A DNA stretch of 64,000 nt from assembly GCF_003977665.1 (NCBI RefSeq), contig NZ_RYYV01000015.1, forward strand, positions 1-64,000. Reading direction: 5' to 3'. The position numbers and the translations under genes were made by a program. The DNA is from Dyella choica (GTDB lineage: Bacteria; Pseudomonadota; Gammaproteobacteria; Xanthomonadales; Rhodanobacteraceae). Shown here piece by piece: positions 15,551 through 30,386 of the stretch (position 1 is its first letter; the number at the start of each line of letters is the position of its first letter). The notes below the pieces were generated by a model. That model was not told the DNA's origin and made no database searches. It was given only the letters and a program-made list of their open reading frames with translations.

Positions 15551-17071
<1,521 letters not shown>

Positions 17072-25228: not shown

Positions 25229-26890
25229 CTACGCGAGCGCATTCGCATGCACGCCACGTACCGCGCGCCCAGAGGGATCGGCCATGGCGGCAAACGCCGG
25301 ATCCCACGCCAGCGCCGCGGGCGACGAACAGGCGATCGACTTGCCGCCCGGCACCGTCGCGGCGCAGGCTTCGCCGGGGAAGAATTTCTCGAAGATGCGG
25401 CGATACAGATACGCCTCCTTGGTGGCGGGCGTGTTGAAGGGATAGCGCGAGGCGGCGGCGGTGAATTCGCGATCGCTCACCGCCTGCTCGGCGTGCGCTT
25501 TCAAGCCGTCGATCCAGCCGTAGCCCACGCCATCGCTGAACTGCTCTTTTTGCCGCCACAGGATCGATTCCGGCAAGGCACCGGCGAAGGCTTCGCGCAG
25601 CACGGCTTTTTCGATGCGACCGTTGCCGGCCATCTTGTGGGCGGCATCCATGCTCATCGCCGCTTCCATGAACTCCAGGTCCAGGAACGGCACACGCGCT
25701 TCCACGCCCCAGGCCATCATCGACTTGTTCGCGCGCAGGCAGTCGTAGCTGTGCAGCGCGTCGAGCTTGCGCACGGTTTCCTCGTGGAAGGCTTCCGCCG
25801 AGGGCGCTTTGTGGAAATACAGGTAGCCGCCGAAGATTTCGTCCGAGCCTTCGCCGGACAGCACCATCTTCACGCCCATCGCCTTGATGCGGCGGGCCAG
25901 CAGGTACATCGGCGTGGAGGCGCGGATGGTGGTGACGTCGTAGGTTTCGATGTGGCGGATCACTTCCGGCAGCGCATCCAGCCCTTCCCAGAAGTTGTAG
26001 ACGAAACCGTGGTGCACGGTGCCCAATGCGTCGGCCACCACTTTGGCGGCGGCCAGGTCGGGCGAACCTTCCAGGCCGATGGCGAAGGAATGCAGGCGCG
26101 GCCACCAGGCTTCGCTGCGATCATCGTCTTCCACGCGTTCGCGTGCGAAGCGTGCGGCGCAAGCGGCAACGAGCGAAGAATCCAGCCCTCCCGAAAGCAA
26201 TACGCCGTACGGCACGTCGGTCATCAGCTGGCGATGCACTGCCTGCTCGAACGCCTGGCGCAACTCACCCGGGCCGTGGCCTTGGGTAGCGGAGTAATCC
26301 CGCCATGGACGCTGGTAATAACGCTGCAACTCGCCGCTGGCGCTGTCGTACACATGCCCCGGCGGGAACGGCGCCACGTCGGCGCATACACCGACCAGCG
26401 CCTTCATTTCCGAGGCCACGCACAAGCGGCCCTGCGCATCGTGGCCCCAATACAAGGGACACACGCCGATCGGATCGCGTGCAACCAGGTAGCGCCTGGC
26501 GTCGCCATCCCACAGGGCGAACGCAAAAATGCCATTGAGCCGGCTGAGGAAATCCGCACCCTGTTCGCGGTAGAGCGCGTTGATCACTTCGCAGTCCGAG
26601 CCGGTGGTGAAATCGTAGCCGCTGTGCGCACGCAGCTCGCGATGGTTGTAGATCTCACCGTTCACCGCCAGCGCCAGATGGCCATCGCGCGAGCGCAGGG
26701 GTTGCGCGCCGCTGGCCGGGTCGACGATGGCGAGGCGCTCGTGCACCAGGATGACTCCGGCATCCACGAACACCCCGCTCCAGTCGGGTCCGCGGTGACG
26801 CTGTCGCTGCGACAGTTCCAGGGCCTGCAGGCGTAACGCAGCCAGGTCGTCGCCCGGCTGCAGGTCGAACATTCCGAAGATCGCGCACAT
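25229..26890 (-). CDS. asnB: asparagine synthetase B, glutamine-hydrolysing
   Basis: A 553-residue enzyme making asparagine from aspartate, ATP and glutamine ammonia. Cys2 is the glutaminase nucleophile; RHRGPDWSG, HERLAIVD and NGEIYNH complete that domain (1-190). The PP-loop LSGGLDSSL at 232-240 and SGEGSDEIFGGY mark the synthetase domain. Length and order match E. coli AsnB. A candidate attenuator with an Asn-rich leader peptide lies just upstream (26931-27117), so expression probably tracks charged tRNA-Asn. Confidence 0.97.
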   Translation of the reverse strand: MCAIFGMFDLQPGDDLAALRLQALELSQRQRHRGPDWSGVFVDAGVILVHERLAIVDPASGAQPLRSRDGHLALAVNGEIYNHRELRAHSGYDFTTGSDCEVINALYREQGADFLSRLNGIFAFALWDGDARRYLVARDPIGVCPLYWGHDAQGRLCVASEMKALVGVCADVAPFPPGHVYDSASGELQRYYQRPWRDYSATQGHGPGELRQAFEQAVHRQLMTDVPYGVLLSGGLDSSLVAACAARFARERVEDDDRSEAWWPRLHSFAIGLEGSPDLAAAKVVADALGTVHHGFVYNFWEGLDALPEVIRHIETYDVTTIRASTPMYLLARRIKAMGVKMVLSGEGSDEIFGGYLYFHKAPSAEAFHEETVRKLDALHSYDCLRANKSMMAWGVEARVPFLDLEFMEAAMSMDAAHKMAGNGRIEKAVLREAFAGALPESILWRQKEQFSDGVGYGWIDGLKAHAEQAVSDREFTAAASRYPFNTPATKEAYLYRRIFEKFFPGEACAATVPGGKSIACSSPAALAWDPAFAAMADPSGRAVRGVHANALA

Positions 26891-26930
26891 TGATGGATTT
26901 CCTTGGGTTCGCTGGTGGGATGAAACGCTG

Positions 26931-26963
26931 AAAAAAAAGGGCCCGCACTTGGCGGGCCCTTTT
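26931..26963 (-). terminator. strong Rho-independent terminator upstream of asnB, candidate attenuator
   Basis: On the minus strand AAAAGGGCCCGC, a 5-nt loop, GCGGGCCCTTTT and a T run of eight. It ends 41 bp before the asnB ATG and begins 26 bp after the stop of the Asn-rich leader frame. A CGGGCC segment within the last leader codons can pair with GGCCCG of its 5' arm, giving a possible antiterminator. It could alternatively just end the upstream SpoIIAA-like gene. Confidence 0.85.
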
Positions 26964-26988
26964 GCGTGTGTCTGTTTGCTGCTCTCGT

Positions 26989-27117
26989 CTACACGCCGGC
27001 CCGTCCGCGGTTGCGGTTGTTGTTATTGGCGTTGTTATTCAGGACTGCTGCAGCCGAAGCAGCACGCGCCGCGAAGGCGGCGTGGCTAGTGAACTGGCTG
27101 GCGAGGCAGGTGTGCAT
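26989..27117 (-). CDS. candidate asnB leader peptide, 42 residues with eight Asn codons
   Basis: ATG at 27117 to TAG at 26991-26989. Residues 27-36 read NNNANNNNRN: eight of ten codons are AAC or AAT, an extreme bias in front of an asparagine synthetase gene. The layout (short frame, regulatory codons near its end, stop just before a strong terminator, then the biosynthetic gene) is the classical ribosome-mediated attenuator plan of his, trp, leu and thr operons. The ATG has no strong Shine-Dalgarno, and TAA stands four codons upstream in frame. Expression is unproven. Confidence 0.6.
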   Translation of the reverse strand: MHTCLASQFTSHAAFAARAASAAAVLNNNANNNNRNRGRAGV

Positions 27118-27181
27118 GAGGCCGACTTAAGCACAAGTCCGAACCGCACGCAACGGTTGCAGCGGTTACCAGCACCCCGGC

Positions 27182-27547
27182 TCAGGCTGAAGAAGCCCAG
27201 CGCATGGCTTCATCGAGTTCGGCATCGGCAAACAGCCTGAAATGGGTGGGCATGGCGAAGCCGAACATGCTGGACATCACGCGGACCCAGCCCACGTCGG
27301 TGACCAGCGCGGTGCGTTCCCAGCCACTGATATGGCGGAAGCCGAGCTTCACGTCATCCCACATCGCGCCGGGCGCGAAGCCGGTGAAATCGTCGCCGAT
27401 ATGGATCAGCAGGCGCAGCTTGGGGTTCAACGCGAAGGCGGCTTCGATATCCGGCACCATCACGTCCTCGTAGTCCCGCGCGGTCACCAGTCCGCGCATG
27501 CGAAAGCCGAGGACGCCGGCCGGCAGCGTAGGGAGTTGCTCGATCAT
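27182..27547 (-). CDS. SpoIIAA-like (STAS-fold) protein
   Basis: A 121-residue protein. The N-terminus GVLGFRMRGLVTARDYEDVMVP and central LRLLIHIGDDFTGFAPGAMWDD, then RTALVTDVGWVRV, match the SpoIIAA-like family of small proteins with an anti-sigma-antagonist fold and unknown role. It lies upstream of the asnB leader on the same strand. A long palindromic repeat precedes it. Confidence 0.8.
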   Translation of the reverse strand: MIEQLPTLPAGVLGFRMRGLVTARDYEDVMVPDIEAAFALNPKLRLLIHIGDDFTGFAPGAMWDDVKLGFRHISGWERTALVTDVGWVRVMSSMFGFAMPTHFRLFADAELDEAMRWASSA

Positions 27548-27625
27548 GGCAGCGCTCCTTGGTGCGGGGTGGGGTTATCCAAGCGCCAATTGAGCGGGGA
27601 TGCAAGTGCAGGAAAACGAGACGCG

Positions 27626-27744
27626 CTCCCTCCCCTGCTTGCACAGGGGAGGGTTGGGGTGGGGTTGCATGCGCTTGCGACACAAGTGAATTCACCGCGA
27701 GGTTGCTCCACCCCACCCCAGCCCTCCCCTGCCAGGGGAGGGAG
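27626..27744. repeat. long GC-rich palindromic repeat, copy 4
   Basis: Same outer and inner arms as copies 1-3 with a more divergent core (TGCGACACAAGTGAATTCAC). It lies between recJ and the SpoIIAA-like gene, 9 bp downstream of the recJ stop. Confidence 0.85.
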
Positions 27745-27753
27745 CAGAGCGGA

Positions 27754-29475
27754 TTACGCCGGCTCCATATAGCGCAACAAGAGCCGCGGCGATTCCCGGC
27801 CCTGCCAATCGTTGATGGTCAGCTCGAAAGCCGCGCGCATCACGCTCGGCGGCGGCTTGCCGTCGTAGGCGTTGAACATCACCGCATCGTGCAGCGTATC
27901 GTCGCGCGGATCGCGCAGGCTCAGGCGCAAATGCCGCTCGCCCATCGTGCGCCAGCTGAAGCACTCAAAGCGGTTTTCGAACACCGGCTCCGGGAACGCC
28001 TGTCCCCACGGCCCGGCGAAGCGCAACATGCGCGCCATTTCCAGGGTGAACAGGCCGGCCGGCATGTCGCCGTCGGTATAGAGCACGGCCTGCAATTGCT
28101 CTTCGCTCAGCCATTCGCGCGCCACCGCATCGAAGGCTTCGGCAAAACGGGCATAGTGATGGGTGCGCAAACTCAAGCCTGCGGCCATGGCATGGCCGCC
28201 GAAGCGCTCGATCAGGCCAGGATGGCGCGCATCCACCACCGCCAGGGCATCGCGAATATGAAAGCCGGCGATCGAGCGTGCCGAACCGCGCAGCTGATCG
28301 GGATCGTCTTCACCCGCCGGCGCAAAAGCGATCACCGGGCGATGCAGTCGCTCCTTCAGCTTGGATGCCACTAGTCCTACTACGCCGGCATGCCAGCTTG
28401 GCTCGAACAGCGTGACGCCTACGGTCTGCGCATCGACATTCGCCGCGCTTGCCACCATCCCTTCCGCTTCGGCAACCATGGATGCCTGCAAGTCGCGCCG
28501 CTCCTGATTGATGGAACCCAACAGCTCGGCGTAATGGCGCGCTTGCCGGGCGTCATCGGTGAGCAGGCATTCCACGCCCAGCCGCATGTCCTCCAGCCGG
28601 CCGGCGGCGTTCAGGCGCGGCCCTACGGCGTAAGCAAAATCGCTGGCGCACAACGATGCAATGCTGCGTTGGCTCGCTTCGATCAAGGCCAGAATGCCGG
28701 CGCAACCTCGACCGCTGCGCAGGCGCTTCATTCCTGCTTCCACCAGCACGCGATTGTTGTAGTCCAGCGGCACCAGGTCGGCCACCGTACCCAGCGCGAC
28801 CAGGTCCAGCAGCACGGACAGGTCCGGCTCGGGCTTTTCGGCAAACCAGCCCTGCTCGCGCAAATGTGCGCGCAACGCCAGCAGCACGTAGAACATCACA
28901 CCCACGCCGGCCAGGGCCTTGCTGGGAAAGCCATCGCCGTGCAGGTTGGGATTGACTATGGCGTCCGCCTGCGGCAGCTGATCGCCGGGCAGATGGTGAT
29001 CCGTCACGATCACGCGCATGCCGCGCGCGCGCGCGGCAGCGACACCGGCAACGCTGGCAATGCCGTTGTCGACGGTTACGATCCATTGCGCATGCGCCGG
29101 CAGCGCAGCCACCAGCTCCGGGGTAAGCCCGTAGCCATGCACGAAACGATTGGGTACCACGTAATCCACGCGCAGGGCGCCAAGCATGCGCAGGCCGCGC
29201 ACGGCTACCGCCGCGCCGGTAGCGCCATCGCAGTCGTAGTCACCAGCGATCACGATCGACATGTCGTCGCGAATCGCTTCCGCCAACAATGACACTGCTT
29301 GCTGCATGCCGTTCAAGTGCTGAGGCGACAGCAAACGGTTCAAACGATGCTCGGCCTGTTCGGGGCTCAACACCCCGCGCGCCGCATAGATACGTTGCAG
29401 CACCGGATGCACTGCATCGCTCCAGCCGGCCGGCTCCCCCAGCAGCGGACGCCGCCGCAATAGCTGGCGCGTCAT
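27754..29475 (-). CDS. recJ: single-strand DNA exonuclease RecJ
   Basis: A 573-residue 5'-3' exonuclease of the DHH family, acting in recombination and mismatch repair. Catalytic motifs are DYDCDG at 79-84, Asp136 (VTVDNGIA), DHH at 159-161 and HGGHAMAAG-like FGGHAMAAG further on. The start at 29475 (MTRQLLRRRPLLGE) overlaps the previous stop in ATGA; the longer upstream frame is antisense noise. Last gene of a yheS-rpfE-recJ unit. Confidence 0.95.
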   Translation of the reverse strand: MTRQLLRRRPLLGEPAGWSDAVHPVLQRIYAARGVLSPEQAEHRLNRLLSPQHLNGMQQAVSLLAEAIRDDMSIVIAGDYDCDGATGAAVAVRGLRMLGALRVDYVVPNRFVHGYGLTPELVAALPAHAQWIVTVDNGIASVAGVAAARARGMRVIVTDHHLPGDQLPQADAIVNPNLHGDGFPSKALAGVGVMFYVLLALRAHLREQGWFAEKPEPDLSVLLDLVALGTVADLVPLDYNNRVLVEAGMKRLRSGRGCAGILALIEASQRSIASLCASDFAYAVGPRLNAAGRLEDMRLGVECLLTDDARQARHYAELLGSINQERRDLQASMVAEAEGMVASAANVDAQTVGVTLFEPSWHAGVVGLVASKLKERLHRPVIAFAPAGEDDPDQLRGSARSIAGFHIRDALAVVDARHPGLIERFGGHAMAAGLSLRTHHYARFAEAFDAVAREWLSEEQLQAVLYTDGDMPAGLFTLEMARMLRFAGPWGQAFPEPVFENRFECFSWRTMGERHLRLSLRDPRDDTLHDAVMFNAYDGKPPPSVMRAAFELTINDWQGRESPRLLLRYMEPA

Positions 29476-30386
29476 GCCTTGCTCCGCCGCCACCAACGCA
29501 GGCGGTGCCAGGGGCGATGCAGGTAGCGCTCGCCACTGGCGAAAGCGAACTGGATCGGCTCGCGCTTGCACAGTTTCTGCAGGCCGGGCCACCACTCCGA
29601 AGCGATCGCGTCGGCGGGCTGATCTTGCAGGTCGATCAGCCAGCCTGGCTGGGTCGAATCCAGTCGCGCATGCCGCTGCACAGGAATGCCGGCCCGCTTG
29701 GCCAACGCAAGCAACAGCAAGTCGTCGCCGATCACACCCCGCAATGCGGTATCGACGCGAGACGGCAGCACGCCGCCGCCCCAGAACCACAGGCTGTTGA
29801 TCGGCGGCAGTCCGCGTTCACGCCGCTGGGCATTGAGCGGATGCTGATGCAACAGCACTTGCACTTCGTTGAACAGCACGCGCCAGCGGCGCGCCTGAGC
29901 GCCTTGCGGCAAGTGCTCATACAGGTCTTCGCCCAGCGCAGTCTCCGGCGCCGCGAATTCGGGCAAGGCGCTTTGCGCCGGCAAGCGCAGATGCCAACGA
30001 TGCGCCGAAGAGACTTCCAACCGCATGCCTTCCTCGGCAAACATCGCCTGCAACGGCTCGGCCAGCTCCTCGGCTTCGTCCAGCCCCAACGGCAATTGGC
30101 CACAGGCCAGCAGCCGTGCCCCGGTCATATCCGGCTGCACCCAGGCCGGATCGGCACTGAGCCAGCAGGCATCGCCGGCGTCGCCGGCCAGGTAGTCGCG
30201 GGTCAGCGCCGCCGCCGCCATGCCGCCCTCGCACACAAAATAGGCGGCGAGGCCACCGAGGTAGCCCTCGGCGCCGGTGGAAAGATGATCCGCCCGCTGC
30301 AGCAGCACGCGTAAGGGATGGGTGCGATCGAAGCGCTGCCAGGCGGGTAGCCAGCACTGCAGGGTTCGGGGAGCGCTATCGGTCAT
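29472..30386 (-). CDS. rpfE: RpfE-type protein (phosphoglycerate mutase-like fold)
   Basis: A 304-residue protein of the family annotated RpfE in xanthomonads and more broadly as cofactor-independent phosphoglycerate mutase-like. Typical stretches are LQCWLPAWQRF at the start, ADPAWVQPDMTGARLLACG, RWRVLFNEVQVLLHQHPLN and GLPPINSLWFWGGG. In Xanthomonas rpfE belongs to the rpf region of pathogenicity factors, and mutation has mild effects; its biochemical role is not settled. Coupled to yheS upstream (3-bp gap) and recJ downstream (4-base overlap). Confidence 0.8.
   Translation of the reverse strand: MTDSAPRTLQCWLPAWQRFDRTHPLRVLLQRADHLSTGAEGYLGGLAAYFVCEGGMAAAALTRDYLAGDAGDACWLSADPAWVQPDMTGARLLACGQLPLGLDEAEELAEPLQAMFAEEGMRLEVSSAHRWHLRLPAQSALPEFAAPETALGEDLYEHLPQGAQARRWRVLFNEVQVLLHQHPLNAQRRERGLPPINSLWFWGGGVLPSRVDTALRGVIGDDLLLLALAKRAGIPVQRHARLDSTQPGWLIDLQDQPADAIASEWWPGLQKLCKREPIQFAFASGERYLHRPWHRLRWWRRSKA

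Follow-up and report, generated by a model that had tools for sequence, protein, structure and literature searches.

The region upstream of the asparagine synthase B gene (asnB) of Dyella choica very probably comprises a ribosome-mediated transcription attenuator, which would sense asparagine by means of a short frame rich in Asn codons and thereby control asnB, and whose RNA is probably leaderless. Comparison of asnB upstream regions revealed a conserved frame, conserved Asn codons, a terminator and the potential for a competing pairing, which favours the original prediction of an attenuator on the plan of those of the his, trp, leu and thr operons. In the window, that is, the whole stretch of 64,000 nucleotides that was analysed, asnB is located on the minus strand (25229..26890) and codes for a glutamine-hydrolysing asparagine synthase B (NCBIfam NF006949, 856.8 bits against a cut-off of 499; Pfam Asn_synthase and GATase_7), so that the gene behind the leader makes the amino acid cognate to the codons within it.

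The leader frame (26989..27117, read on the minus strand from 27117 to 26989) comprises 42 codons, translated as MHTCLASQFTSHAAFAARAASAAAVLNNNANNNNRNRGRAGV, and a TAG stop codon (26991-26989). Codons 27-36 (27010..27039) code for NNNANNNNRN, with eight Asn in ten positions, and the C-terminal end of the peptide reads LNNNANNNNRNRGRAGV. The stop codon is followed after 25 nt by a perfect hairpin, AAAAGGGCCCGC-CAAGT-GCGGGCCCTTTT (26963-26935), with a 12-bp stem, a 5-nt loop and a run of eight Ts (26938-26931), which together form a predicted intrinsic terminator (26931..26963). A further 40 nt separate the last T from the ATG of asnB, which has its own ribosome site (AAGGA, 26904-26900). The frame, its Asn run and the hairpin with eight Ts had all been described in these terms, while the two spacings had been put at 26 and 41 bp, each one too many.

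In the proposed mechanism transcription would begin at the leader AUG or no more than one base away from it, and the resulting leaderless RNA would be loaded with ribosomes. With ample charged tRNA-Asn, the ribosome would translate the Asn run, reach the stop codon and mask the 5' strand of the antiterminator (region 2); its 3' strand (region 3) would then pair with region 4, the terminator would form and asnB would be off. If charged tRNA-Asn runs short, the ribosome would instead stall on the Asn run, and region 2 would be free to form both stems with region 3 before region 4 has been synthesized, allowing read-through into asnB. A caveat to this scheme is that the best twelve codons of some members of the group include no more than three for Asn.

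Promoter and predicted leaderless start

A predicted promoter precedes the leader on the minus strand, with a -35 box TTGCGT (27148..27153; -36 to -31 from the leader AUG), identified by the conservation of TTGC, and an extended -10 box TGC-TTAAGT (27125..27133; -16 to -8), identified by its sequence and moderate conservation. The two boxes are separated by a spacer of 17 nt and the -10 box ends 7 nt before the AUG, which is the predicted +1. The moderate conservation around -10 among 115 leaders consists of a G at -15 (63%) and of T at -13 (63%), -8 (54%) and -7 (56%), while the base at -1 is a C in 97%. The start codon is ATG in 113 of these leaders and GTG in two. TTGC begins 35-37 nt ahead of the start codon in 103/115 leaders; the choice of start codon for this count was itself influenced in part by the promoter. 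A fairer check is provided by the 69 leaders in which only one ATG is possible; TTGC or TTGT starts between -38 and -34 in 68 of them, compared with approximately 4% for positions at large in these stretches. A Shine-Dalgarno core is found before the leader in only 13 of 113 cases, as opposed to 98/113 before asnB. Transcription thus probably starts at the leader AUG, giving a leaderless RNA, and this would explain why the leader has no ribosome site. The absence of a strong ribosome site at the leader ATG had been raised as a caveat to the attenuator; it is borne out among the relatives, and the promoter fixed relative to the AUG offers an explanation for it.

Antiterminator and ribosome positions

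Two stems are predicted for the antiterminator in the window. Region 2 (26991..27003, minus strand) contains CGGGCC (27003-26998) and GCGTGT (26996-26991), the latter ending on the T of the leader stop codon, while region 3 (26953..26969) contains ACACGC (26969-26964), just before the hairpin, and GGCCCG (26958-26953), which doubles as part of the 5' arm of the terminator. The upper stem pairs CGGGCC with GGCCCG and the lower pairs GCGTGT with ACACGC, so that the leader end and the terminator would make mutually exclusive use of the terminator 5' arm, as far as predicted pairing potential goes. The complementarity of CGGGCC and GGCCCG had been the basis of the antiterminator in the original prediction and is present at these positions; with the folding alternatives now computed, the predicted structure is larger than was described, as it includes a second stem in which the T of the stop codon takes part.

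A duplex between regions 2 and 3 is predicted in all 115 leaders, with a mean of -23.3 kcal/mol as compared to -14.6 with a shuffled leader end, and is stronger than the latter in 114/115. When the partners of the upper stem were swapped between genomes, the mean changed from -10.3 to -7.5; the own partner was better than the swapped mean in 97/113 leaders and better in 2162/2825 pairwise comparisons. For the lower stem the same swap changed the mean from -15.0 to -14.1, with the own partner ahead of the swapped mean in 89/113 and a near even outcome pairwise (1513/2825). The leader sequences are related, so that these counts are non-independent. Column covariation of the antiterminator in the register of the window is weak, with three pairs changed on both sides as against 2.4 in shuffles; the covariation score was reached by 4/500 shuffles and the number of paired cells by 28/500. 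The reasons are that the lower stem shows almost no variation, with 96.4% of its cells paired, and that the upper stem, as judged by eye, shifts its register between genera; it was because a single register gave little that duplexes and swaps were evaluated for each sequence.

With an assumed ribosome footprint of 12 nt counted from the first A-site base, a ribosome on at least one of the Asn codons would leave the RNA able to fold the antiterminator in all 113 distinct leaders (in the window, on seven of the eight Asn codons), while a ribosome on the stop codon would leave structure of a mean of only -2.1 kcal/mol before region 4. At equilibrium the terminator fold is predicted to win in 113/113, by a mean of 12.7 kcal/mol. 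In a looser comparison the antiterminator was ahead in 80/113, because its side counted more upstream RNA. Given that the terminator wins at equilibrium throughout, the decision in favour of antitermination would have to be kinetic, as it is in trp attenuation. The 1:2 protector hairpin, which would favour termination in the absence of translation, is barely above what codon shuffles provide (mean z of -0.47, better in 80/113). Region 2 copies region 4 over at least six bases in a row in 65/113 leaders, compared with 13% when codons are shuffled and 40% when partners are swapped; the copy is shorter than six bases in the other 48/113.

The weak protector hairpin and the equilibrium advantage of the terminator fold in every leader would also fit a scheme in which the ribosome acted by another route, with the Asn stall or the leaderless start controlling asnB translation, Rho access or RNA stability. 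Such a route is improbable: asnB mostly has a Shine-Dalgarno core of its own, a terminator-like hairpin is found in 115/115 leaders, and the distance between the leader stop codon and asnB varies widely, which fits poorly with translational coupling.

Selection on the Asn codons and charging of tRNA-Asn

The Asn run is exceptional within the window, where nine of the 127,942 ten-codon segments in six frames contain five or more Asn, and all nine overlap the leader run. Its conservation before asnB argues against a chance origin. In the last 24 codons of the 113 distinct leaders, 729 of 2712 codons in frame code for Asn, while the other two frames of the same DNA contain 3 and 7 Asn among 2599 codons each. 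The leader frame was chosen as the most Asn-rich of the three, which biases the in-frame count upwards but not by two orders of magnitude. The Asn codons are AAC (387) and AAT (342), while the lysine codons AAA and AAG occur three times each, and AAC and AAT replace one another at single positions at which Asn is kept; codon -16, for example, is AAT in 20 and AAC in 11 of the 32 Dyella-type leaders. Judged by this pattern of substitution, the Asn codons of this short frame are under selection in frame.

For a leader that reads the charging of tRNA-Asn to report free asparagine, this tRNA must be charged directly. Among 47 genomes tested for this, 32 have the leader (most identified by sequence, the rest by a match to the covariance model R1 described below with E <= 7.6e-14) and 15 do not. 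The asparaginyl-tRNA synthetase AsnRS (TIGR00457) scores over the cut-off in 32/32 genomes with the leader and 14/15 without it. Of GatA, GatB and GatC, the test covered GatA (TIGR00132), which is part of the bypass by which Asn is made on the tRNA and scores over the cut-off in 0/32 genomes with the leader and 4/15 without. The presence of AsnRS and the lack of GatA over the cut-off link the sensor and its product in the tested leader genomes without that bypass.

The same data bear on the suggestion that the Asn run reads queuosine modification of tRNA-Asn, or the general speed of translation, a role which may coexist with the sensing of asparagine. tRNA-Asn belongs to the tRNAs that carry queuosine, and the run is made up entirely of AAC and AAU. 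The suggestion nevertheless carries very little probability, since the about equal use of the two codons betrays no bias to the codon whose reading queuosine would alter, the gene controlled makes asparagine, and the tested leader genomes have AsnRS without GatA over the cut-off.

A small protein with a function of its own, encoded by the frame in place of or in addition to its role as a sensor, is just as doubtful. The frame is open and its end conserved in 113 distinct sequences, but the N-terminal part of the peptide is variable in length (21-46 aa) and in sequence, only 40 Asn occur among the 1516 residues before the last 24 codons, and the final residues vary between genera in step with the RNA pairing. 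The leader peptide has no match in Pfam or NCBIfam. A translated sensor of asparagine is the reading preferred here.

Terminator and upstream neighbour

An intrinsic terminator lies between the leader stop codon and asnB throughout the group, with a stem of at least 8 bp after the stop codon in 115/115 leaders, as located with a permissive hairpin finder; in 17 of the 115, the nine bases that follow this stem at its longest include only two to three Ts. The stem shows compensatory changes: in alignment A1, seven of its 12 pairs are changed on both sides, in 78 cells as compared to 18.2 in shuffled alignments, and 0/500 shuffles reached as high a value. The distance between stop codon and hairpin is tight (24.5 +- 3.0 nt), while that between hairpin and asnB is loose (64.8 +- 36.7 nt). 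In some Rhodanobacter tandem copies of approximately 60 nt (ACCCGGCCATCCATGGCCGATG...GCGCGGTTCCATCCGCGCAAGAGCAA) are found between the terminator and asnB (L014:1253-1459; similar by eye in L013 and L020), and the longer distance between hairpin and asnB in these strains is due to these copies.

In the window the upstream neighbour, on the same strand, is a SpoIIAA-like gene (27547-27182, Pfam PF11964), which ends 64 nt before the leader AUG. The caveat attached to the attenuator at the outset was that the hairpin simply ends this gene. Taken together with an incidental Asn frame, this is the least probable of the alternatives considered and was rejected despite that proximity, since the spacing of the hairpin is tied to the leader stop codon and not to asnB, a conserved promoter separates the leader from the upstream gene, the codons are selected in frame, and the leader-terminator-asnB unit stays together where the upstream gene changes, as in Pseudoxanthomonas, where it follows dapE (L081).

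Distribution among asnB loci

The leader was sought in 80 named-record loci that had been fetched through AsnB, regardless of the presence of a leader. In two of these the upstream region could not be read (the gene start is absent in L069 and L044 has only 123 nt upstream), and an Asn-rich frame, stop codon and hairpin were found in 74 of the remaining 78. The best twelve codons of these leaders contain between three and eight Asn, with at least five in 65/74. The leader-bearing set includes Dyella, Rhodanobacter, Frateuria, Fulvimonas and Dokdonella, as well as Luteimonas and Pseudoxanthomonas, which are members of the Lysobacteraceae, the family formerly called Xanthomonadaceae. The alignment of asnB upstream regions proposed with the original prediction thus finds the Asn run, its frame, the position of the stop codon and the hairpin conserved from the Rhodanobacteraceae into the Lysobacteraceae. 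The four named loci without the leader are actinobacterial, two from Rhodococcus and one each from Prescottella and Tomitella (L063, L067, L072 and L077), and their AsnB proteins are 78-84% identical to that of the window; AsnB was apparently transferred between phyla here, with the leader not included. A locus on a contig binned as Candidatus Eremiobacteraeota (L007) has a typical leader and an AsnB with 94% identity, and this contig is probably a mis-binned Dyella-like one.

A covariance model (R1) built from 75 sequences (the window and the 74 named loci) has matches in 340/398 genomes of the order at a loose threshold (E <= 0.01). Among the matches listed, at least 44 are in two other families of the order (f2 and f3), and the Asn frame (four to seven Asn in twelve) and hairpin were found in all 40 of these loci that were read, two of which duplicate named loci. 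The asnB start pattern follows the leader in 40/40, and the AsnB frames inspected, at 17 loci, begin with MCSI. At E <= 1e-6, the model failed to detect true members in two genomes (G233 and G244), whose leaders were read at their asnB loci (L227 and L221), and R1 counts are therefore lower bounds. A search of 369 genomes of the class with R1 at the same threshold returned two matches outside the order (L187 and L188). Read on both strands, they contain at most two Asn in twelve codons and consist of the ends of lysine-rich repeat genes with a hairpin, and they were rejected as chance matches.

The leader was also related to AsnB itself through a protein search of 58 chosen genomes, picked partly for a weak or missing R1 match, which gave 46 AsnB loci. 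A leader (three to eight Asn in twelve codons and a hairpin) is present in 25 of the 27 loci at which AsnB is at least 77% identical to that of the window, two of these repeating named loci. The two exceptions, L190 in G232 (AsnB 88% identical) and L194 in G199 (82%, with only 250 nt upstream), belong to the window's own family and are possible natural losses of the leader. Of the 19 loci with an AsnB at most 71% identical, all but L204 could be read, and no leader was found at any of these 18 (0-2 Asn per twelve codons); in eleven of them an internal AsnB start was used, approximately 16 residues in if they are like L204. Relatives of AsnB are infrequent in the class at large, with matches at E <= 1e-60 in 8/185 genomes, the window's own genome included, five of them outside the order. 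As far as tested, the element follows a single AsnB lineage of the order. In the window's own genome no such leader was found, on the strand of the gene and with a cut of at least five Asn in twelve codons, at the four loci checked, namely that of AsnRS and three asparagine synthase paralogue loci (L240, L243 and L244) of a set that also includes L245-L247.

Comparison with known attenuators

The leader-peptide attenuators of the his, trp, leu, thr, ilv and phe operons of proteobacteria share one general plan. The asnB leader is alike in its run of codons, the stop codon at region 2, the competing hairpins and the cognate biosynthetic gene, and differs in having Asn codons and asnB, a two-stem antiterminator that uses the stop codon, and a weak protector hairpin. 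What is new would be asparagine as the amino acid, the probably leaderless start and the two-stem antiterminator, in an anatomy that is otherwise that of a leader-peptide attenuator. Matches to known families of the Rfam database are sub-threshold only in the window (Thr_leader, 22.8 bits against a gathering score of 55; Trp_leader, 18.8 against 41; Phe_leader, 18.7 against 55), and a scan of eight related loci gave no family at its gathering score.

T-box elements bind uncharged tRNA directly, without a translated leader. Like the system proposed here they read tRNA charging for asparagine-related genes, whereas the proposed sensor upstream of asnB is a translated frame, and the T-box family is absent among the 42 Rfam matches (E up to 5) over 26600-27800. 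According to PMC2494555, a T-box controls asnS in a few Firmicutes. The plan of a cognate codon run, a stop codon at region 2 and a competing antiterminator and terminator is likewise outlined for classical attenuators in PMC2659441 and PMC7298713. For the trp attenuator rnTrpL of Sinorhizobium meliloti, the latter places the 5' end of the RNA at the AUG of the leader frame, and the same leaderless arrangement is predicted in the Dyella leader. The rnTrpL leader differs in its Trp codons, its target trpE(G) and its occurrence in Alphaproteobacteria; trans-acting roles have been demonstrated for it. It is conceivable, though rather unlikely, that the parallel extends further and that asnB answers to two inputs, charged tRNA-Asn and the capacity for leaderless initiation, in a lineage-wide class whose terminated leader RNA and Asn-rich peptide might in addition act in trans like rnTrpL and peTrpL.

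Among the papers listed by a literature search, judged by title and abstract, none describes an asparagine attenuator; the names Lysobacterales and Lysobacteraceae lay outside its scope, as did the texts of Vitreschak 2004 and Lopatovskaya 2010, both on attenuators, in which an earlier prediction may be found. The main texts of four papers on attenuators (PMC2965389, PMC1183508, PMC4833913 and PMC2659441) contain no words beginning with 'asparag', and the text of PMC1262725, as far as it was covered, no word beginning with 'asn'. If the attenuator is true, control by a translated leader would extend to one more amino acid pathway, that of asparagine, and the element would show how much of a bacterial order adjusts AsnB. 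With more than 100 natural variants, whose antiterminators differ in register from genus to genus, the leaders further lend themselves to the study of attenuation that begins with a leaderless RNA, and a covariance model or leader-peptide entry would allow annotation pipelines to label these short frames correctly.

Other features of the region

An imperfect inverted repeat of 38 nt, with 45 nt between its arms, is located at 27625-27745 of the window, between recJ (27754-29790) and the SpoIIAA-like gene, and gives many sub-threshold matches to Rfam microRNA models. A second frame resembling class II aminoacyl-tRNA synthetases is found at 15566-16888, approximately 8 kb from asnB, which scores 86.9 bits to asnS, below the cut-off. 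Frames like it occur approximately 1.5-7.5 kb from asnB in several relatives, including G112, G192, G072 and G145.
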